Source: Candidatus Melainabacteria bacterium (lineage in GTDB: Bacteria; Cyanobacteriota; Vampirovibrionia; Obscuribacterales; Obscuribacteraceae). From it: DNA of 64,000 bases. The notes beneath the pieces are model-generated. The model did no database searches. It had not been told where the DNA came from and saw only the letters and a program-made list of their open reading frames with translations. Made by a program: the position numbers and the translations under genes. This document shows positions 43,208-52,238 of the stretch, piece by piece. The stretch covers positions 170,256 to 234,255 of the forward strand of contig RXJR01000020.1 in the NCBI GenBank assembly GCA_003963305.1, written 5' to 3'. Position 1 is the first letter of the stretch. Every line of letters starts with the position of its first letter.

Positions 43208-43454
43208 CCATGGAACGCAGCCGTCCCGGCTGCTTTAAACATCCGAAATACCATGGAACGCAGCCGTCCCGGCTGCTTCAAACATCCGAATACCATGGAA
43301 CGCAGCCGTCCCGGCTGCTTCAAACATCCGAAATACCATGGAACGCAGCCGTTCCGGCTGCTTCAAACATCCGAAATACCATGGAACGCAGCCGTCCCGG
43401 CTGCTTCAAACATCCGAAATACCATGGGATGCAGCCGGGACGGCTGCGCTCCAT
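43208..43454. repeat. 43-bp tandem repeat array, five direct copies plus an inverted end copy
   Basis: ATGGAACGCAGCCG starts recur at 43210, 43253, 43295, 43338 and 43381 (spacing 42-43), each with a CAGCCGTCCCGGCTG palindrome and the spacer CTTCAAACATCCGAAATAC. A shorter ATGG at 43424 leads into an inverted copy (CAGCCGGGACGGCTGCGCTCCAT) that closes the array. Several chance open frames cross it because 43 is not a multiple of three. Confidence 0.9.
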
Positions 43455-43497: not shown

Positions 43498-43617
43498 CTA
43501 GAATTCTGCGACGAGTCCGAAACTTGCAATCAACAAGATACAGAAAAAATAGAAGACAAAGAACCACGCCCAGCGAGTGATTAGTTGAATCTCTGTGACT
43601 TTTGCTTCCTTAGCCAT
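43498..43617 (-). CDS. 39-residue single-helix membrane protein, end of respiratory operon
   Basis: On the minus strand ATG 43617, preceded by GGGGATAAGGTA, opens a 39-codon frame ending in TAG at 43500-43498. The product starts MAKEAKVTEIQLITRW, continues as one membrane helix (AWFFVFYFFCILLIASFGLV) and ends in AEF. It lies 44 bases after the MvhD-type gene in the same direction. Its size and topology are those of the tiny subunits of cytochrome b6f and cbb3 complexes (PetG/L/N, CcoQ type), but I see no specific match. It probably stabilises the complex encoded upstream (inference). Confidence 0.62.
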   Translation of the reverse strand: MAKEAKVTEIQLITRWAWFFVFYFFCILLIASFGLVAEF

Positions 43618-43661
43618 TACCTTATCCCCATTTGGCGTTCGATAGATTCTTCCAGACTACT

Positions 43662-44246
43662 TCAGGATTTAGCTTCACTGCTCGTGTCTTCAATCGGTCC
43701 TTTGTTTTCCTGAACTGGCGGCACTTCGGCTTTCGCGTCCTTGCCGTCTTCTGCTGCTTTCGCTTCAGCTGTTTCAGCTTTAGTTTCAGCGGGCTTTTCA
43801 GCTGCCTTGGCTGCCGGAGCCGGCTTTGCCGCAGCCGGGGCCGCAACCTCTGGCGCAGGCAGAGAAGCTACGAATTTGACAAATTCAGCCGTATCAGCGA
43901 GGAAACGATCCTTCTGCGGACGAGACAACCAGAGCGCGAGAATGCGCCGACGATCCGTAGCCTTCTTGAGAGTAGGCACGCGATTGCCGAGCAGTCTTTC
44001 GCGGATCATCTTATTACCTTCGCGGTAATAGCAGTCTCCAATCTGGCAGCCGCATACTACGACCCCAGCCGCCCCTGCCTTGAGGGCAGTCTCAATCATG
44101 TTGGGCTGAACCATTCCACTGCAGGGAAGCTTAACGACGTGCAGTCCATCAACGCCTTTGACCTTACCGTCGGCATCAAGTAAGTCATTCACGTCTGCTG
44201 AGCGTTCGCACATCAGCGTTATTACTCTGTTGTTTTCGTTAGCCAT
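43662..44246 (-). CDS. MvhD/FlpD-type iron-sulfur electron-transfer protein
   Basis: 194 residues. The first ~125 match the MvhD family (PF02662): an early Cys (LMCERSAD), VVKLPCSGMVQPNMIETALKAGAAGVVVCGCQIGDCYYREGN with the Cys ligands of the [2Fe-2S] cluster, and RRRILALWLSRPQKDRF. MvhD normally passes electrons between hydrogenase or formate dehydrogenase and heterodisulfide-reductase subunits; none of those is in the window. A ~70-residue Ala/Pro/Lys/Glu tail follows. It lies 32 bases after the cytochrome b-ferredoxin gene, which suggests that it exchanges electrons with those ferredoxin clusters. Confidence 0.85.
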   Translation of the reverse strand: MANENNRVITLMCERSADVNDLLDADGKVKGVDGLHVVKLPCSGMVQPNMIETALKAGAAGVVVCGCQIGDCYYREGNKMIRERLLGNRVPTLKKATDRRRILALWLSRPQKDRFLADTAEFVKFVASLPAPEVAAPAAAKPAPAAKAAEKPAETKAETAEAKAAEDGKDAKAEVPPVQENKGPIEDTSSEAKS

Positions 44247-44278
44247 CTCGACTTCCCTAATCTCCTGCGATGAAGAAC

Positions 44279-45451
44279 TTATTTCGCTTCCATAATTTGC
44301 TTAACTTGAGCCAGTACATTTGCATCCGGAAGATCCGGCAAATCGATTGCATCGAACGCACAAGCACCTACGCAGACACCGCAGCCCGAGCAGCGATACG
44401 GCAGAACCGTAGCGAGCAGTTTGAATCTCGAGTTCGCAGGAGCCGGCACCATTTCAATAGCCTGATAAGGGCAGTCGAGATAGCAAAGGTTGCAGCCCAC
44501 ACATTTGTTCAAGACAACTTCAGCTGCCTCCACCGGTGGTTCCTTAATCAAGAATGACCACGGCATCGGCAACAAGCAAGCTCCTACTGTGATACCGGCG
44601 ACGACTAACCAGTAGACGAGAGCGCTCGGAAGCGAATTCATCAAGGCGTAAGGAGCAAGGAAGAACCAATCCATCTCGAAACCGGTCGGAGGTGGACCAT
44701 TCAACGAAGCCATCTTGCCGCTGGTGATCGGGAACATGAACACAAACACGAGCAGCAACGCCATCAGAACATAGTTGATAGCCGGCGGCGGCGTCATCAC
44801 AGGGCGTGTCATGCGCACGTAGTGAATCCACAAACCAAACAGCAATGCAAATGACAAACCGATATGAATGAACAGGTAGTTCGACATTGTGTAGTTCGAG
44901 ATGGTGTCACCATTCAAGAACCACTCTTTCAGACCAGGTCCAAAGAAAGGCACGCCTTCGAGCGCATACACAGTCATGCGTGTGAGAGCCAGAGAGCGTT
45001 CATCCCAAACCAGGTAGTAGCCGGTCTGACCGATGAAGAGCACCATGACGAAAAGAACGATGCCGCTGAACCACTGCAACCAGCGGTACTGACGATAGCG
45101 ATCTGTGAACCAAACACGAATTGCGTGCAGCAAAATCGTTATCACCATGGCGTCACCGGCGTAACGGTGAATACCACGCACCACAGCGCCGAATGGAATC
45201 GAATCGTTGATGTACTCAACTGAAGTCCAGGCGTTGATCAGAGCCTTAGAGAGATAGGCATTATCTACAGTTGGAATGTAGTATGCGAAAAGCAGCAGTC
45301 CTGACAGATACAAGACCCAGAGATAAAACTGAGGCAGAGCGCCGTGATAATAGAGCGGGTTGTACTTGCTCGTCATTATCTTGTTTGTTAGGTCTTCAAA
45401 AACAAGGAAGAACTTATTCCCTGATTTGATTAGTTGTTCGTATGCCGACAT
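44279..45451 (-). CDS. Cytochrome b (bc/b6f type) fused to a two-cluster ferredoxin
   Basis: 390 residues. The N-terminal ~215 are a four-helix cytochrome b with all heme ligands: His95 and His109 in helix B (RGIHRYAGDAMVITILLHAIR), His196 and His210 in helix D (FIHIGLSFALLFGLWIHYVR). The Qo-loop region reads FEMDWFFLAPY where PEWY is usual. About three more helices follow, then a ferredoxin: CVGCNLCYLDCP and CSGCGVCVGACAFDAIDLP, which can hold two [4Fe-4S] clusters on the cytosolic side. It would let electrons enter or leave the quinone pool through ferredoxin-like carriers. It is the second cytochrome b in this operon. Confidence 0.9.
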   Translation of the reverse strand: MSAYEQLIKSGNKFFLVFEDLTNKIMTSKYNPLYYHGALPQFYLWVLYLSGLLLFAYYIPTVDNAYLSKALINAWTSVEYINDSIPFGAVVRGIHRYAGDAMVITILLHAIRVWFTDRYRQYRWLQWFSGIVLFVMVLFIGQTGYYLVWDERSLALTRMTVYALEGVPFFGPGLKEWFLNGDTISNYTMSNYLFIHIGLSFALLFGLWIHYVRMTRPVMTPPPAINYVLMALLLVFVFMFPITSGKMASLNGPPPTGFEMDWFFLAPYALMNSLPSALVYWLVVAGITVGACLLPMPWSFLIKEPPVEAAEVVLNKCVGCNLCYLDCPYQAIEMVPAPANSRFKLLATVLPYRCSGCGVCVGACAFDAIDLPDLPDANVLAQVKQIMEAK

Positions 45452-45489
45452 GGTCTTCCTCTTTCAGCTTCCCTGAAACTGCCGCTCAA

Positions 45490-45864
45490 CTACTTCTTCA
45501 CCGGAATAATCAATTTCTCTTCTGCATCGTCTTTTCCAACAAACATGATGGCGAAAGCAGCGAGAATCATCGCCACACCCATTGCCATCGCATATGTGTA
45601 ATTACCAGCAGCAATTGGATTGATTACGCCTTTTGCGCTCTCATCGTCCTTATCAACTTTTCCGCTCAATCTTTGCTGAGCCCAATCACCCAGAGGTTTA
45701 AGACCGGTGAAAGGGGGACTATCAAAAATCGGCTGCGACCAGGCCGGCAAAGCAGGCTTGTCGAAACCGAAGCCCGATTCGGCCCAGGGCATCAACATCA
45801 AGCTGACACCAACAACAGCAACGCCGATCAGGGCGACCACAACTAGCTTGGCATCATTATTCAT
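45490..45864 (-). CDS. Small two-helix membrane protein of the respiratory operon
   Basis: 124 residues: an N-terminal helix (KLVVVALIGVAVVGVSLMLMPWA), a ~50-residue extracytoplasmic loop rich in Pro, Phe and Gly, and a second helix (YAMAMGVAMILAAFAIMFVG) with a charged tail. No known family. It overlaps the preceding gene by eight bases and lies 38 bases before the cytochrome b-ferredoxin gene, so it is probably a structural subunit. Confidence 0.75.
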   Translation of the reverse strand: MNNDAKLVVVALIGVAVVGVSLMLMPWAESGFGFDKPALPAWSQPIFDSPPFTGLKPLGDWAQQRLSGKVDKDDESAKGVINPIAAGNYTYAMAMGVAMILAAFAIMFVGKDDAEEKLIIPVKK

Positions 45865-46228
45865 GATGTTCCTTTCTCCTTAGCTTCCTCTCCTCTTGAA
45901 GACGAATATGTATGTCTTCATAGAGTTTGATTTTCTTCTTCAAAGTGCCTTTGCTTTTTTCTTCGAAATAGGTCCAGTACCCCATGATTCCGAGAATCAA
46001 AAGAGTCAACGAAGTGCCGAACACAAGCAGCGCCACGCTGGCGATTCCTGGTGCTTGATTGACTTCGCGCCAGCCCTGGAAAAACCAGGAAAGCGAAAGT
46101 ACAGCCATGCAGAATGCCACCGTCTTCAGTGCGAAGCTGATCTTATACACGACAGGTGCGCCGGCATCAGATGCGGCGCCTCCGTCAATGTTCACTGAGT
46201 GGTTGTTGCCTGTGGCCAAAATCTCCAT
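45857..46228 (-). CDS. Membrane protein of the respiratory operon
   Basis: About 123 residues with two helices (ISFALKTVAFCMAVLSLSWFF and IASVALLVFGTSLTLLILGIMGYW), then a long cytosolic basic/acidic helix (FEEKSKGTLKKKIKLYEDIHIRLQEERKLRRKEHHE). No known family. The ATG at 46228 lies four bases after the cytochrome b stop; a TTG at 46219 behind GGAG is a rival start. Two further genes on each side overlap or abut, which supports one multisubunit complex. Confidence 0.72.
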   Translation of the reverse strand: MEILATGNNHSVNIDGGAASDAGAPVVYKISFALKTVAFCMAVLSLSWFFQGWREVNQAPGIASVALLVFGTSLTLLILGIMGYWTYFEEKSKGTLKKKIKLYEDIHIRLQEERKLRRKEHHE

Positions 46229-46232
46229 TCCT

Positions 46233-48038
46233 TTATGACGCCGATGCCGCCGGAACTTTAGGTGCCTGAGGCGCAGGAGCCTTAGCACTGCGGAACTTCA
46301 CCCAACCATACATGCACGCGGCGAAAACGATGAAGCCGGCAACCATCCAGAACCAGTCCAGATCAGGAATCGGTTGTGGATAAATGGTTGTTATTGTCGG
46401 CTGTTTAACACCGTCCATGCGGTCAGCGAAGTTCACGAAGTCGAAGCACCAGCGGTTGTTGACCATGAAGTCTATTTGACCTAGATACTCTGCGTGAGGG
46501 GCAGGAGTGAAAGTCGGAATCAGCTTATAGAGCCAATCGAGACCGGCCGGTTGTTGGCATACAGTCTGCAATTCGAGCAGCTTTGCCTTCTCCAGCGGTT
46601 CGCCCATCTTTTTGATCGTTTCAGGATCGAGAACGAAGGGATAGTTCCAATATTCTTTGTTTGTCGACCAGAGCGCACGCACGAGCTCTTCCGCTTTCTT
46701 CATGTTCTCGCCACCGAACGGACGGCAGAGACTGTAGAGGAAAGCATGCAACATGGGATCGAAGAAGATTTCAGTGCGCGCCATGAAGTAGTACCAGACA
46801 GCGCAGATACCCTGAATCAACCCGACAATAGCCATCACCAGAGCACCCTTGGCATTCTTAGCAGCCTGGATAGGATCTTTGTTCGTGAACATAAGACCCA
46901 ATTGCAAGAGGATACCGATGTCGACCATAAGGAAGAGTGCATCTCTCCAGTAAGGCGGGTCGACGTGAATATTGGCGATGTTGACGATGATCAGATAGGA
47001 GAATGCGATCCAGTTAAGCAGCCCCATCAGTGTGACGAGGAATATCAGTGGACGCTTCGAAATATCTTTCTCGGCACCGGTCACCCAGACGTCAATGAAG
47101 GGCAGCAAAATAACGGAGATCGGAATAATCAGCGTAATTTCAGTTGCCACTACCGGCTCGAGATATTTGTACATCTGGTACAGACCAAGGAAGTACCAGT
47201 CAGAGAGAATCGGCAGCGGAGTTACGTCTGGATCAGAACGGCGACCCTGCGCAGCAGGCAGGATGATGGCAACGATGACGAGCATCATTACGACGATGAT
47301 GCGTTTTGTCCAGTTGAGCGGAACACGCTTGTAAGCATTTTTGTAGAAATAAAGTTCGACGAAGATCAGCGGAATCAACGAGAACGCCAGGTGCAAAGAG
47401 AAGAATCGAGTGATCGTCTCTTGAGTGATGGCGGCGCCACCACCCAGCAATACTTCAGCTGTATTCCAACCGAGATGCAATGACTTGACCAGAGGCTGAT
47501 AGAAATCGCCCATGACCGGAAATTGATCCATATAAGTCGGGAATGTAGCAAACACCTTGGTCGCCCAAAATGCACGCTGGTTCCAGATCAAAAGATATCC
47601 AGTCAGACCTGAGTACATCGAGAGCAGAAGAGCAATAAGACCAAGCGCGATGTTGAATTCGCGACCTGGCTTATAGTCTGCATTTATGAACATTCTGTAG
47701 AGGCGCAGCGTTGCCGCGATAATCATCGCGTCTGCACCATATTTGTGCATGCCGCGAATCAAGCCGCCGAATGGAATTTCAGTCTGGATGCGGAAAATCG
47801 AATCGAAAGCCTCAGGCTTGGTGGGCACATACCAGATCATCAGCAACAAGCCACTGGCCATAACTATGAACCAGACCAGATAAAAAATCGGTCCGAGAGC
47901 ATAGAACGGATTCGTCTTAGCCTCGACGTTCTGATAGCTTTCATCGAAGATATCGATGTTTTTTATGCGCGTCTTGACGTAGTCAGTCACAGCAGTGACT
48001 GTTCCGGACAATCCCTTGTCAGAAGTTGTACTAGGCAA
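46233..48038 (-). CDS. Cytochrome b of Rieske/b complex lacking the heme bH ligands
   Basis: 601 residues. Helices A-D form a cytochrome b: RGMHKYGADAMIIAATLRLYRMF (His98) and TRFFSLHLAFSLIPLIFVELYF (His216) keep the bL-side ligand pair, but the partners 14 residues later are Arg112 and Tyr230 instead of His. The Qo motif is LSDWYFLGLYQ (SDWY for PEWY). Helices E-H follow without a break, so b6 and subunit IV parts are one chain, then a ~200-residue C-terminal domain with a final helix (FWMVAGFIVFAACMYGWVKF). It overlaps the Rieske gene by eight bases. I infer a quinol-oxidising subunit with one b heme. Confidence 0.88.
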   Translation of the reverse strand: MPSTTSDKGLSGTVTAVTDYVKTRIKNIDIFDESYQNVEAKTNPFYALGPIFYLVWFIVMASGLLLMIWYVPTKPEAFDSIFRIQTEIPFGGLIRGMHKYGADAMIIAATLRLYRMFINADYKPGREFNIALGLIALLLSMYSGLTGYLLIWNQRAFWATKVFATFPTYMDQFPVMGDFYQPLVKSLHLGWNTAEVLLGGGAAITQETITRFFSLHLAFSLIPLIFVELYFYKNAYKRVPLNWTKRIIVVMMLVIVAIILPAAQGRRSDPDVTPLPILSDWYFLGLYQMYKYLEPVVATEITLIIPISVILLPFIDVWVTGAEKDISKRPLIFLVTLMGLLNWIAFSYLIIVNIANIHVDPPYWRDALFLMVDIGILLQLGLMFTNKDPIQAAKNAKGALVMAIVGLIQGICAVWYYFMARTEIFFDPMLHAFLYSLCRPFGGENMKKAEELVRALWSTNKEYWNYPFVLDPETIKKMGEPLEKAKLLELQTVCQQPAGLDWLYKLIPTFTPAPHAEYLGQIDFMVNNRWCFDFVNFADRMDGVKQPTITTIYPQPIPDLDWFWMVAGFIVFAACMYGWVKFRSAKAPAPQAPKVPAASAS

Positions 48039-48600
48039 TTCCCCCGGCCTCCAAACTTAGAACTTGATATTCCTCGCCTACTTTTTTCACTTCGAAACTG
48101 CGCGGTGGTCTTGGTGCCGGTCCGCTCACGACTTTGCCACCATTTGCGATGTCATAGACGCTCAAGTGGCAGGGGCATGCGAATACTGGACCGTTTGGTG
48201 TGAAGTTGTAACCCTTGGCACACTCGGACGGATCTTTGACGAAATTGAAGATGCAACCAAGGTGCGGGCAAATGCGGCTATATGCGACAACGTCACCAGT
48301 CGGCAATTTGACGATGAAACCAGGAATCTGGCGAACTTCTTTGCCTTCAGGGTTGTACTCGATGTAGCTCTGCTTGAACATGAATGGCAAGCAGGTCCAA
48401 GGTTCAGGGAAATCGCTGTCTTTGAACGACGGCACAGGCAACTCAGCTACTGGCTGGTCAGATTTGCCGAGCACGTCGAGCGGCTTTCTGGTCGGCAGCA
48501 AGAAACGCAGGAAAGGCGACGCCAGCAAACCGAATGTAGCAGCCAGCGGAATCGCTGCCGCCGTCTTCAATAAGAATCGTCTTGATGTACCATCAGCCAT
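48031..48600 (-). CDS. Rieske [2Fe-2S] protein
   Basis: 189 residues. A Tat-type signal/anchor (TSRRFLLKTAAAIPLAATFG) precedes the Rieske domain: ICPHLGC (CxHxGC type) and CPCHLSVYD (CxCHxS type), giving two Cys and two His cluster ligands; GPAPRPPRSFEV is the Pro loop. About 35 residues are inserted before the cluster fold (LPVPSFKDSDFPEPWTCLPF). It takes electrons from quinol at the partner cytochrome b and passes them to cytochrome c. It is followed by the cytochrome b gene in the usual order. Confidence 0.94.
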   Translation of the reverse strand: MADGTSRRFLLKTAAAIPLAATFGLLASPFLRFLLPTRKPLDVLGKSDQPVAELPVPSFKDSDFPEPWTCLPFMFKQSYIEYNPEGKEVRQIPGFIVKLPTGDVVAYSRICPHLGCIFNFVKDPSECAKGYNFTPNGPVFACPCHLSVYDIANGGKVVSGPAPRPPRSFEVKKVGEEYQVLSLEAGGIA

Positions 48601-48619
48601 ATTGCTTCACCCTTGTTCC

Positions 48620-49414
48620 TTACTTACTTGAACTGGCTGCTGAGCCAGATTTGTTTGCACCAGTGTCTTCTGGCAATGTGGCCAAATTGGTTTCGTGGAA
48701 GTTTCGAACATACTGTACCAGTTTCCAGATGTAGGCCTCATCGAATTTTAGGTTCTTCGCCTTGTCTTCCTTACCGAGGAAGTTCGGCATGCCTTCCCAC
48801 TTAATGCCGTTGGCGATGTGGTCATAGAGAGTATCGTCAGTGCGATCGTAGAATCGGTTGTACTGAGAGAAGTTAGCAGGCACAGGCTCTAAAGCGTGAG
48901 CAAGCGGACCATCTCCTTTTCCCTTTTTGCCGTGGCAAACAGCACAGTTCGAACCAAAGACGGGATCGATTGCCATAATCTCAGCATCGTTCAGCTCAGG
49001 TACAGCAAGTGATCTTGTGTAGAAGACCAGGTCCCAGATCTGGCGTTTGCTCAATTTGTCTGCCAGAGCCGGATGATTGGTCCCAGGCTTGCCATAAGCA
49101 ACAAACAAGAATTGATCGATAGGCTTGATCTTGCGCATCCAGACTTTGTCGGACAAATTCACAGGTGCCGAGCCGCCACTGCCTGTGGCACCATGACACG
49201 AGGCGCAGTTCTGCTGGTTCCACCAAACTTTACCGTCAGGCACAGAAGGTCTGTCTTCGGGATAGGTCAAGATATCGGCTTTTCGAGTCAGATTAGCCGA
49301 AACCAGACTCTCGTTTTTTAGAGAAAAGTTGCTGGAGCATGAAGAGAGCAGCACCATACCCGGCGCCAGCAAAAGTAGGGAGAAAGCATGCTTCAGTCGA
49401 ATTGGTAATCGCAT
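48620..49414 (-). CDS. Diheme c-type cytochrome lipoprotein
   Basis: About 264 residues. The lipobox MVLLSSC anchors it to the membrane. Two heme-c sites are visible: CASCHG (with DGKVWWNQQN before it) and CAVCHG; likely Met ligands lie in KWEGMPNF and the first domain's KVWMRKIKP region. It probably carries electrons from the Rieske protein to the cbb3-type oxidase whose genes precede it. Start ATG 49414 places the signal peptide normally; no strong ribosome-binding site is seen, and the 67-residue gene ends eight bases upstream. Confidence 0.88.
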   Translation of the reverse strand: MRLPIRLKHAFSLLLLAPGMVLLSSCSSNFSLKNESLVSANLTRKADILTYPEDRPSVPDGKVWWNQQNCASCHGATGSGGSAPVNLSDKVWMRKIKPIDQFLFVAYGKPGTNHPALADKLSKRQIWDLVFYTRSLAVPELNDAEIMAIDPVFGSNCAVCHGKKGKGDGPLAHALEPVPANFSQYNRFYDRTDDTLYDHIANGIKWEGMPNFLGKEDKAKNLKFDEAYIWKLVQYVRNFHETNLATLPEDTGANKSGSAASSSK

Positions 49415-49422
49415 TTTTTTAG

Positions 49423-49626
49423 TTAGTATCCGAAGAAGGGAATCCAGGAGAAAAGCGCCCAACTAACGATGAACAAAAAGAAGAGAATGAGAAACAAAGG
49501 AGGCGGTCCTTCGCCGATGCGATATTCCGAAACTTCCTCGTAGTGCTCCTCTTCACCGGTGGCAGGTGCAGCCGCTGGTTTGAGCGGATCAGCCGCTCGA
49601 ACAGACTGTTTCGCGTCGTCAGCCAT
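49423..49626 (-). CDS. Single-helix protein of the oxidase operon (CcoQ/CcoP-N-like position)
   Basis: 67 residues: ~40 hydrophilic N-terminal residues (DPLKPAAAPATGEEEHYEEVSEYRIGEG), then one membrane helix (PPPLFLILFFLFIVSWALFSWIPFFGY) that reaches the C-terminus. It holds the place of the small CcoQ or the membrane anchor of CcoP, but I do not see a firm match. It overlaps the CcoS-like gene by eight bases. Confidence 0.72.
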   Translation of the reverse strand: MADDAKQSVRAADPLKPAAAPATGEEEHYEEVSEYRIGEGPPPLFLILFFLFIVSWALFSWIPFFGY

Positions 49627-49882
49627 TGGTTACCTCTTTTACTGAAGACAAATTTTTCATGCGTGCTTTTTCTGCCGCCAGACGAGCCCGAATACCATTC
49701 GGTCCGTCTTCGTCGTCATCCATCATCTCGAATTTAGTTGCTTCCATATCTTCGAATTCGCCGTTCTTGAAAGCCCAGAGAATACCGACGATAGCTACGA
49801 TAAAAAAGACTCCGCATACTCCGAAGGCAACGTACATGCCACCTTGCAGACCGGCTTGATTGAGAATGCAATTAGGACACAT
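49619..49882 (-). CDS. ccoS: CcoS/FixS-like oxidase maturation protein
   Basis: 87 residues. One membrane helix (YVAFGVCGVFFIVAIVGILWAF) is followed by KNGEFEDMEATKFEMMDDDED, close to the CcoS pattern 'lksGQFDDlegpa-x-x-iL-x-DD'. CcoS is needed for cofactor insertion into cbb3 oxidases. Unusual features are an N-terminal CPNC motif before the helix, which could bind a metal, and a ~25-residue Lys/Arg-rich tail. It overlaps CcoO by one base. The copper transporter and ferredoxin partners (CcoI, CcoG, CcoH) are not in the window. Confidence 0.66.
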   Translation of the reverse strand: MCPNCILNQAGLQGGMYVAFGVCGVFFIVAIVGILWAFKNGEFEDMEATKFEMMDDDEDGPNGIRARLAAEKARMKNLSSVKEVTNG

Positions 49883-50823
49883 TATTCTCCGCCTCCAGTG
49901 TGGGGCTCATACTCTTCGTGTGAGAGAACCGGCAGTTTGACCTGCTGTGCCTTCTCCACGTCTTCGAGCTTGTCTACTGTCTCTTCCGTATCTTTCTGCA
50001 GCGTCTTCAGATAAGCAACTACGTACCAGCGCTGCTCTTCTGTGAGAATCTGATTCCAACGAGGCATTCTGGTTCCAGCTACACCTTCGCTGGTGCGATA
50101 GAACCACATCGAATCGTCATACTGTTTGTAGAACGGACGAGTGAAATTAGCTGGTTTCTTTTCCAGAGTGATTGAGTTTGGACCGTTGCCTCGACCATCA
50201 AGTCCGTGGCAGGCAGCGCAGTTCTGTGTGTAGATACCGCGACCAGCATTGGCACTGGCAGAAGCGTTGGTGTCGACGTGGCGACGAGCGAGAAGAGCGC
50301 GACCGGCTTCGGTGGTATCACGATACTCATCCGGAGCTTCAACATAATGTTGGGGCAATCGCTTGTTTCCGAGAGTCTGAATGTATGCCACCAGGTCATT
50401 CATGTCTTCATCAGACAGGTAGCTGAATGAAGGCATTATCGAACCGGGCTTGACTGCACGAGGTTGTACAAGGTGAGCTTTCTGCCATTGCGATGGGAAG
50501 CGTCCGCCTTCGTTGGTCAGGTCTGGACCAGTGCGAGCGGTACCAAGTTGGTGAGGCGTTTCATAGTTGTAGTCACCAGCTTGCACGAGCGGTCCGTAGC
50601 CACGGTCTTGCAAACGCGTAAATTGCGTGTGGCAGTAGAAGCAACCTTCTCGAACGTAGATCTGGCGCCCGCGAGCAGCATTACCAACAGTCTCGGTACT
50701 GTAGTCGTTGCCGGTGTGAGCTGGTTTTGGTTGAAACAAGACCATCGGCATCAACACAGTTGAGAAGATGATTGTGAAAAACGTGATGACGATACCAATG
50801 GCACCGAGTCGGTAGCCGTACAT
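49882..50823 (-). CDS. ccoO: cbb3-type oxidase CcoO-like subunit with second cytochrome c domain
   Basis: 313 residues. A membrane helix (GAIGIVITFFTIIFSTVLMPMVLF) is followed by a CcoO-type monoheme domain: REGCFYCHTQFTRLQDRGYGP, then HQLGTARTGPDLTNEGGRFPSQWQKAHLVQPRAVKPGSIMPSFSYL. A second cytochrome c domain follows with CAACHGLDGRGNGPN and GTRMPRWNQILTEEQRWYVVAYLKTL. The second half stands in for CcoP, which is otherwise absent. It overlaps CcoN by one base. It carries electrons from the c lipoprotein to the catalytic subunit. Confidence 0.9.
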   Translation of the reverse strand: MYGYRLGAIGIVITFFTIIFSTVLMPMVLFQPKPAHTGNDYSTETVGNAARGRQIYVREGCFYCHTQFTRLQDRGYGPLVQAGDYNYETPHQLGTARTGPDLTNEGGRFPSQWQKAHLVQPRAVKPGSIMPSFSYLSDEDMNDLVAYIQTLGNKRLPQHYVEAPDEYRDTTEAGRALLARRHVDTNASASANAGRGIYTQNCAACHGLDGRGNGPNSITLEKKPANFTRPFYKQYDDSMWFYRTSEGVAGTRMPRWNQILTEEQRWYVVAYLKTLQKDTEETVDKLEDVEKAQQVKLPVLSHEEYEPHTGGGE

Positions 50824-52238
50824 TAGACTTTGACCTCCTTGGGTTTAGCGGCAGGAGCTACAACGACAGCCCGCGTGTACAGCGTCTTGTAGGTGTTGTA
50901 GGCGAATATGAATTGACCGGTGACGATCATGATTCCGCTGATGCTGCGCAAGAACCAGTAAGGAACAAGTTCAATAACCCACTGATCTACTGGGATGCCA
51001 TGGTGCCAGCCAGCTGACTGGACTAAGCCCGCAATCGTCAATGAAGTCATCATCAAACTGAACCCTAAAAACTTGAGCCAGTAGTGAGCTCGAATCAGAC
51101 CCTGACTGTGCCACTGCCGTCCAGTCAATCGCGGCATACTGTAATAGAACGCCGAAGTCAAAATGAATGAGAAAGTTCCGAGAAGTGCAAGGTGAGCGTG
51201 TCCTACTACCCATTGAGTAAAGTGGAGATACCAGTTAACCCAGCGAGTTGCCTGGAACGGACCCTGTGTGCAAGTAACCAGGTAGAACATGCAAGAAGTG
51301 ACGGCGAATCGCAACGGGATATCGGTTACGACCATTCCCCATTTGCCTTTCATGGTCATGAAGAAGTTGGTCAAGACGGTGAATACCGGCACGAGCAAGA
51401 AGATGGAAGAGATGACTGCAATAGCCTTCAACCATTCTGGTACCGGCGATTGCAAAATGTGGTGCGTCCCAGTCGGCGCATAGAAGAGGGCAATTCCCCA
51501 GAAGCCCAGCATCGATAGACCGTGGCTGTACAGCGGCGCCCCTGTCAGTCGTGGCAGCAAGTAATACATCATGCCGACACCGACTGTGGTGAACCACATA
51601 CCGAGAATGTTGTGACCGTAGAACCAACCGATGATGGCGTCGTTCAAACCAGGCAGAGAGACGAAAGTTCTCTGTCCGATGATGTATACGAGCGGGAACC
51701 AGAACAGTGAGCCGAGGAAATACCACAACGACACGTACAATTTTTTGACGCGTCGATTGACGACCGTCATATAGATGTTCCAGGCGACCGAAACAAGACC
51801 GACCATGACGATGACATCGAGCAGAGCACCGAGCTCGGCATACTCACGACCTTCTGTGTTGCCGTTGAGCAGAGTGCACATGGCGCCTATCATCAGCACG
51901 TTCCATGCCCACATGGTGAAGTTGCCTAAGCGCTCACTCCACAGCTTCGTCTTGCAAAGTGTCGGCACCATATGGAACATGGCAGCGACATAACCCATAG
52001 ACAGCCAACCGATGGCGACTGCGTTGACGTGGAACATTCGCAAGTGCGGCATCGCCAACTGCGGAATGTTGTGCACGAGGTCAGGCATTGAGAACTCAAG
52101 TCCAGCAAGCAAACCGGCGCTCATTCCCCAGAGGGACCACCAGAGCGCTGACAGGAAAAAGTTGCGGCTGGCGCTACCTTCCTGATTGCTTAAAAATTTG
52201 TCTACTAAACTGTTGGACAACTTGAGCCACCCCCGCAA
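50823..52238 (-). CDS. ccoN: cbb3-type cytochrome c oxidase catalytic subunit CcoN
   Basis: 471 residues with about 12 helices. It reduces oxygen to water at a heme b3-CuB centre. Ligands are in place: His70 (low-spin heme) in FHVNAVAIGW, the CuB His209 in WFYGHNILGMWFT and His259/His260 in APTGTHHIL, and His347/His349 in VVGHAHLALLG. The C-family Tyr that cross-links near CuB is likely Tyr319 (CMFYLVTCTQGP). These point to an oxygen reductase, not a nitric oxide reductase. It is the first gene of the 52238-43498 operon. The start is TTG 52238 or TTG 52220; the latter has GGGGTGG six bases upstream. Confidence 0.93.
   Translation of the reverse strand: MRGWLKLSNSLVDKFLSNQEGSASRNFFLSALWWSLWGMSAGLLAGLEFSMPDLVHNIPQLAMPHLRMFHVNAVAIGWLSMGYVAAMFHMVPTLCKTKLWSERLGNFTMWAWNVLMIGAMCTLLNGNTEGREYAELGALLDVIVMVGLVSVAWNIYMTVVNRRVKKLYVSLWYFLGSLFWFPLVYIIGQRTFVSLPGLNDAIIGWFYGHNILGMWFTTVGVGMMYYLLPRLTGAPLYSHGLSMLGFWGIALFYAPTGTHHILQSPVPEWLKAIAVISSIFLLVPVFTVLTNFFMTMKGKWGMVVTDIPLRFAVTSCMFYLVTCTQGPFQATRWVNWYLHFTQWVVGHAHLALLGTFSFILTSAFYYSMPRLTGRQWHSQGLIRAHYWLKFLGFSLMMTSLTIAGLVQSAGWHHGIPVDQWVIELVPYWFLRSISGIMIVTGQFIFAYNTYKTLYTRAVVVAPAAKPKEVKV

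Follow-up and report, generated by a model that had tools for sequence, protein, structure and literature searches.

To our knowledge, all solved Rieske/cytochrome b complexes are symmetric and contain two identical cytochromes b, and the need for electrons to cross between the two halves has been debated for decades. In engineered Rhodobacter bc1 dimers in which the Qo site was inactivated in one half (G158W) and heme bH in the other (H212N), turnover through the two bL hemes took place on the millisecond scale (PMC4330944). Supercomplexes of bc1 and cbb3 oxidase (III2-IV) are described from Pseudomonas aeruginosa (8smr) and as an engineered Rhodobacter type (PMC7876108). Among the Melainabacteria, petB and petC lie beside an O2 reductase, an arrangement termed a complex III/IV combination (PMC6349859), and a cbb3 oxidase together with complexes I to IV has been reported for Vampirovibrio chlorellavorus (PMC4451040). 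Here we describe an operon with two unlike cytochromes b in a stretch of 64,000 nucleotides, referred to below as the window, from Candidatus Melainabacteria bacterium (Obscuribacteraceae, Obscuribacterales, Vampirovibrionia; GCA_003963305.1, contig RXJR01000020.1, positions 170,256 to 234,255, forward strand).

The operon shares with the bc1-cbb3 supercomplexes a Rieske protein, a cytochrome b with a Qo site, c-type hemes, a cbb3-type catalytic subunit, the cytochrome b fold and an expected route from quinol to O2. However, where the supercomplexes have two identical four-histidine cytochromes b, two different ones here split the cofactors between them. The operon also adds an arm composed of a ferredoxin (Fd) domain and an MvhD protein, a diheme lipoprotein and a heme-fused CcoO, and it has no canonical CcoP or cytochrome c1. 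We suggest that its products form a quinol:O2 oxidoreductase pairing a Rieske/heterodimeric cytochrome b complex with a cbb3-type oxidase, and that the iron-sulfur (Fe-S) arm most likely runs inward, a reading that we regard as moderately probable. A preliminary description of the locus had listed a cbb3 oxidase, a Rieske protein, two cytochromes b, a ferredoxin domain and MvhD among about twelve genes with overlaps or gaps under 45 bases. All of these are present on the minus strand, and 12 genes running in the same direction from 52238 to 43498 can be counted, with several overlaps and gaps of at most about 45 bases. Eleven are recognizable open reading frames, and a 39-amino-acid frame (43617-43498) exactly accounts for the boundary at 43498 given in that description. 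The genes are as follows, in the direction of reading.

50823..52238, minus strand: CcoN, catalytic subunit of a cbb3/C-type heme-copper O2 reductase, 471 amino acids (COX1 E 3e-78; TIGR00780 E 4e-82, below cut-off); the start codon is TTG, and the real start is maybe a few codons further in.
49882..50823, minus strand: CcoO fused to a second cytochrome c domain, 313 amino acids, two CxxCH motifs (FixO E 9e-31, plus Cytochrom_C).
49619..49882, minus strand: CcoS/FixS-like protein, 87 amino acids (FixS E 5e-07, above cut-off).
49423..49626, minus strand: protein with a single transmembrane segment, 67 amino acids, conserved in position, without a family (zero matches in Pfam and NCBIfam).
48620..49462, minus strand: diheme cytochrome c, predicted lipoprotein (two Cytochrome_CBB3 matches), about 264 amino acids if the start is the ATG at 49414.
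48031..48600, minus strand: Rieske [2Fe-2S] protein, 189 amino acids (Rieske E 2e-09, above cut-off).
46233..48038, minus strand: cytochrome b number 1 (cytb1), 601 amino acids (Cytochrome_B E 9e-24).
45857..46228, minus strand: 123-amino-acid protein with two hydrophobic segments, without a family (profile and hydropathy).
45490..45864, minus strand: 124-amino-acid protein with two hydrophobic segments, detected only in Obscuribacterales.
44279..45451, minus strand: cytochrome b number 2 with two [4Fe-4S] ferredoxin sites (cytbFd), 390 amino acids (Cytochrome_B E 6e-22, plus Fer4_21 E 1e-09).
43662..44246, minus strand: MvhD/FlpD [2Fe-2S] protein, 194 amino acids (C-terminal part of HdrA2 E 4e-16; MvhD chain 5odc_D E 4e-12; PF02662 above cut-off).
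43498..43617, minus strand: twelfth gene, 39-amino-acid protein with a single transmembrane segment, MAKEAKVTEIQLITRWAWFFVFYFFCILLIASFGLVAEF, kept immediately after the MvhD gene in 41 Obscuribacterales loci.

Cytochromes b carry heme bL on the p-side, bound by the first histidines of helices B and D, and heme bH on the n-side, bound by the second. We aligned cytb1 and cytbFd jointly with cyanobacterial b6, counted residues over all orthologs and made a separate alignment to solved b6 proteins. In cytb1, H98 and H216 occupy the bL-ligand positions in all 64 orthologs. At the bH-ligand positions, which coincide exactly with the bH-ligand residues of both cytbFd and cyanobacterial b6, there is instead arginine (55 orthologs) or lysine (9) at 112 and tyrosine at 230 (64/64), with an invariant neighboring E228. 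The Qo motif of cytb1, TPLPILSDWYF, a PDWY-type ef-loop variant of PEWY, is likewise invariant in all 64. The four heme-ligand histidines of cytbFd (H95, H109, H196 and H210) are kept in 69 of 69 orthologs, and its Qo loop is degenerate, reading, for example, FDLLY, LDGLY or IDVFF. Conservation across the cd1 and ef segments of the Qo site is 95% and 91% in cytb1 and 65% and 58% in cytbFd, and that of helix B is nearly equal (81% and 80%), the cd1 figure being identity to the window sequence and the remaining figures the frequency of the commonest residue. Four histidines for bL and bH together with a Qo site are found in neither chain by itself, only in the two taken jointly. Judged by these residues, the two cytochromes b are complementary, each lacking what the other has, and not redundant.

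The loss of bH ligands is not a general trait of the cytochromes b of this organism, because its genome holds two more Rieske/cytochrome b sets, both with four-histidine cytochromes b. One, on contig C4 (L120), is a conventional-looking cluster of an A-type oxidase, a Rieske protein and a 676-amino-acid cytochrome b with a CxxCH motif and four heme histidines; the other, on contig C23 (L121), is a third set (223 and 372 amino acids) with four histidines, adjoined by membrane proteins and a c-type heme protein. A phylogenetic tree, whose long branches leave the exact join of cytb1 uncertain, placed cytb1 on the b6-like side and cytbFd in a clade with cytochrome b-Fd-FlpD fusion proteins; since the two lie on different sides of the tree, a recent duplication of one cytochrome b was ruled out. 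Cytochrome b6 is the best sequence match of both proteins, and the idea of ferredoxin input on the n-side is common to the operon and to cytochrome b6f. Membership in the b6f family, judged by heme ci and by histidine spacing, was rejected. The column of the heme-ci cysteine (Cys35 of b6, helix A), which is cysteine in photosynthetic cyanobacterial b6, is occupied by A, T, K or Q in cytb1 and by Y in cytbFd, and the helix D histidines are 14 residues apart in both proteins, a one-residue gap relative to b6 (15). The operon further differs from b6f in having no cytochrome f and in its two unlike cytochromes b. One residue past the heme-ci position, cytbFd has a histidine, H36 (45344-45346), that is invariant in 69 orthologs and absent from b6, cytb1 and the fusion proteins; it is possibly part of a Qi-like site.

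The assignment of these genes to one operon rests on the short gaps and on conservation rather than on promoters, because a promoter scan returned exactly the number of matches expected by chance. A one-per-species genome collection was scanned with cytbFd, and the resulting 80 loci were annotated with profiles built from the window genes. Within the Vampirovibrionia, the nonphotosynthetic sister class of the cyanobacteria, the same gene order was found in three orders, Obscuribacterales, Caenarcaniphilales and Vampirovibrionales, among others in Vampirovibrio chlorellavorus NCIMB 11383 (L102) and Obscuribacter phosphatis (L050). The genes are not scattered in these relatives, as they might have been had the first proposal of a single operon been wrong: the 70 Vampirovibrionia loci show zero violations of order or strand, and all seven core genes occur in 54 loci, over a span of 7.5 to 9.1 kb. 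CcoN and cytbFd are each found in 80 of 382 class genomes, 77 of them common to both, and most of the remaining genomes have neither. The six mismatches are incomplete genomes or, in one case (G297), a genome with 6% contamination, and among good-quality genomes each protein is found in 44 of 319. In the order to which the window belongs, cytb1 is present in 47 of 53 genomes and in all 22 of the good ones, and within the class its gene is never separated from that of cytbFd wherever contigs permit a check. Searching 238 genomes of the phylum for cytb1 outside the class gave only four matches at E 1e-45, all of them class members; bL-only cytochromes b may still occur in other phyla. Two contigs labeled Chloroflexi and Proteobacteria (L065 and L069) carry typical Obscuribacterales operons, at about 67 to 70% identity, and are probably mis-binned or mislabeled contigs of metagenome-assembled genomes.

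The proposed heterodimer of cytb1 and cytbFd is well supported by these sequence patterns; the pairing of a bL-only with a Qo-degenerate cytochrome b did not figure in the preliminary description. Without bH, cytb1 could not by itself send the second quinol electron to the n-side, and its obvious partner would be cytbFd, whose gene always accompanies that of cytb1 and which contains both bL and bH. Quinol oxidation would take place in cytb1, which has the only good Qo site. The first electron would then pass through the Rieske protein and the c-type hemes to CcoN and O2, and the second from bL of cytb1, its only heme, to bL of cytbFd and on to bH of cytbFd at the cytoplasmic side. The arrangement looks like an evolved version of the cross-inactivated bc1 dimers (PMC4330944), in that Qo would lie in one half, bH and Qi only in the other, and bL-bL transfer would be the sole link. 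Those dimers are man-made point mutants, whereas the operon has apparently evolved, has two distinct proteins and has an added Fe-S arm. That it specifies a naturally evolved obligate heterodimer, with a bL-only Qo subunit, a bL-bH/Fd/MvhD subunit, compulsory bL-bL transfer and ferredoxin electrons hard-wired into the Q-cycle of a supercomplex that respires oxygen, is in our estimation an evenly balanced proposition.

Alternatively, the one operon could encode two separate complexes, a cytb1 homodimer with the Rieske protein that acts as a simple quinol:cytochrome c reductase with an incomplete Q-cycle, and an independent ferredoxin:quinone oxidoreductase made of cytbFd and MvhD. The different origins of the two cytochromes b fit this arrangement, as does the occurrence elsewhere of cytbFd-MvhD fusions with no cytb1 nearby. 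We nevertheless consider it unlikely. In a cytb1 homodimer, the second quinol electron would be left without an exit from bL, engineered bH knockouts lose their Qi-linked reactions (PMC4330944), and the two genes stay together in the class wherever contigs permit a check.

In the heterodimer that we favor, bH of cytbFd would have two partners, a quinone bound in a Qi-like site and the Fe-S arm, comprising two [4Fe-4S] clusters and the [2Fe-2S] cluster of MvhD. The eight cysteines of the ferredoxin domain are conserved, with a sole exception at C327, and C13, C42, C67 and C72 of MvhD are present in 66 of 66 orthologs. The ferredoxin part and MvhD match adjoining stretches in the HdrA2 C-terminal arm (571-643 and 646-771). 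The order, two [4Fe-4S] clusters followed by MvhD, and the MvhD cysteine set are thus those of the Hdr/Mvh system; in the operon, however, the arm sits on a cytochrome b and not on the FAD-containing HdrA. Relatives of cytbFd in Delta-, Gamma- and Alphaproteobacteria, Spirochaetes and Chloroflexi are longer chains, and all five that were scanned contain cytochrome b, ferredoxin and FlpD domains in that order, each above the Pfam cut-off. Because the three are fused in one chain elsewhere, MvhD would be expected, by the domain-fusion argument, to dock on cytbFd. Hydropathy gives five transmembrane helices in cytbFd, and a structure model adds helix B; with six helices, the ferredoxin domain would lie on the cytoplasmic n-side beside heme bH.

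We searched 20 genomes that carry the operon for FlpD, NuoF, NiFe hydrogenase and the POR family. MvhD was the sole FlpD protein in all 20, six of them gave zero matches to NiFe hydrogenase, and no hydrogenase or HdrA gene lies beside MvhD in the operon. A hydrogenase/Hdr role for this MvhD was therefore ruled out, and the tie to such systems drawn in the preliminary description does not apply here. NuoF, the NADH-binding subunit of complex I, was absent from 19 of the 20, which agrees with the partial complex I described in earlier reports; all 20 had a POR-family 2-oxoacid:acceptor oxidoreductase. Such genomes seem able to generate ferredoxin-linked electrons while missing the NADH module of complex I, and the reverse flow would be uphill, which together favor an inward arm. 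The arm would most likely admit ferredoxin-level electrons, and quinone would receive one electron from the Q-cycle together with one from ferredoxin, in a built-in equivalent of a proposal for cyclic flow through cytochrome b6f. Quinol and ferredoxin-level electrons would then most likely feed the same oxidase.

The same heterodimer could instead work with an outward arm, bifurcation at Qo driving a low-potential electron through bL, bL, bH, the Fe-S arm and MvhD to a cytoplasmic acceptor. This possibility draws on the likeness of the ferredoxin pair and MvhD to the C-terminal arm of HdrA2, which is part of electron-bifurcating systems, and on a complex I whose missing NADH module leaves room for other carriers. 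Established bioenergetics speaks against it, since a step from a p-side bL to a low-potential cluster on the n-side would be uphill in midpoint potential and would oppose the membrane potential. Moreover, the operon has no acceptor gene, and the POR-family enzymes are already able to make reduced ferredoxin, so that we find an outward arm unlikely and slightly less probable than separate complexes.

A further possibility is that cytbFd and MvhD form an assembly or copper-reducing factor similar to CcoG/RdxA, which would reduce copper or thiols while the oxidase matures, using electrons carried across the membrane from the cytoplasm. CcoG also has two [4Fe-4S] sites, and in other phyla the fused protein adjoins a heme-copper enzyme and SCO1 copper chaperones. 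However, such a function would leave the loss of bH ligands in cytb1 unexplained, and in all loci the cytbFd gene comes after those for the Rieske protein and cytb1 and not after assembly genes; we hold it to be very improbable. An ordinary bc1 or b6f plus cbb3 cluster with a duplicated cytochrome b and no special mechanism, for which the reported III-IV co-location in Melainabacteria (PMC6349859) and the known bc1-cbb3 supercomplexes (8smr) might argue, is largely refuted by the invariant, complementary losses in two anciently distinct cytochromes b, neither a recent nor a redundant duplicate.

Several observations weigh against the proposed quinol:O2 oxidoreductase with an inward arm. In the cytbFd model, the cytochrome b core is good, as are the cytochrome b core models generally, and matches bc1-type cytochromes b (VIA Z 25), but the ferredoxin domain is poor (predicted local distance difference test values of about 37 to 56 by block), which makes its place beside heme bH tentative. 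The operon contains no conserved gene for a soluble donor, and the arm could run outward; the inward direction is the weakest step of the model. In addition, cytbFd retains D261 and, in most cases, W262, and the cytbFd of Obscuribacterales may therefore keep a weak Qo site. The loss of bH from cytb1 is deduced from ligand residues, and a substitute ligand may be present.

Taken as a single functional unit, as first proposed, the oxidase, Rieske protein, cytochromes b and Fd/MvhD arm are strongly supported by synteny, co-occurrence, complementary losses and fusions elsewhere, and they may form a physical supercomplex. The accompanying claim that the system was undescribed stands in part. Co-location of complexes III and IV in the class is already published (PMC6349859); in the limited literature searched, we found no description of two unlike cytochromes b, of bH-ligand loss or of an Fd/MvhD arm. 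If correct, the proposal would supply a naturally occurring, asymmetric form of a respiratory enzyme that textbooks show as symmetric, and one obliged to use crossing between its halves, so that the crossing question could be tested directly without mutants. The Fd/MvhD arm would amount to a permanent form of the disputed path from ferredoxin to cytochrome b in cyclic electron flow, located in the class that is sister to the cyanobacteria, and could explain how ferredoxin-linked metabolism is coupled to oxygen in bacteria whose complex I lacks NuoF.

The heme and CuB ligands of CcoN (H70, H209, H259, H260, H347 and H349) and the active-site Y253 are kept in at least 97% of 56 orthologs. CcoN scores 276 bits with TIGR00780 against a cut-off of 583 and is therefore a divergent member of the cbb3 family. 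Both CxxCH motifs of the CcoO fusion are invariant in 56 orthologs. In the diheme cytochrome c, both CxxCH motifs are conserved and a lipobox-like Cys42 is present in 51 of 57; the protein occupies the place expected for CcoP or cytochrome c1, scores below the ccoP cut-off and may substitute for CcoP. The Rieske protein has the two-cysteine/two-histidine site (C111, H113, C142 and H145), which is invariant in 61 of 61 orthologs, as are cysteines 116 and 144.

The cytochrome b-Fd-FlpD fusions resemble the operon in their domains and domain order, in the clade that they share with cytbFd and in adjoining a heme-copper enzyme. They differ in being single chains, and no Rieske or cytb1 gene was found beside them. 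Glutamine in place of the active-site tyrosine is a mark of the nitric oxide reductase eNOR (PMC8756737), a paper that lists one fused protein, RME88945.1, without comment. Many fusion genes adjoin heme-copper enzymes with this glutamine (eight aligned). The window oxidase was rejected as an eNOR, since its CcoN is C-type with a conserved Y253 and glutamine was seen only in those enzymes that adjoin the distant fusion genes. In several phyla (loci L108-L119), the fusions recur beside eNOR-like enzymes with a cupredoxin/CuA-like subunit II and SCO1, and no discussion of this neighborhood was found in the literature searched. One gammaproteobacterial contig (L109:8298-11545) has two adjacent, differing fusion genes, whose products might form a heterodimer too.

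Just downstream of the operon, at 43208-43437, lies a 43-bp tandem repeat of 5.4 copies (GGGACGGCTGCGTTCC), each with a GC-rich stem-loop. Several of the copies are terminator-like by score on the minus strand.

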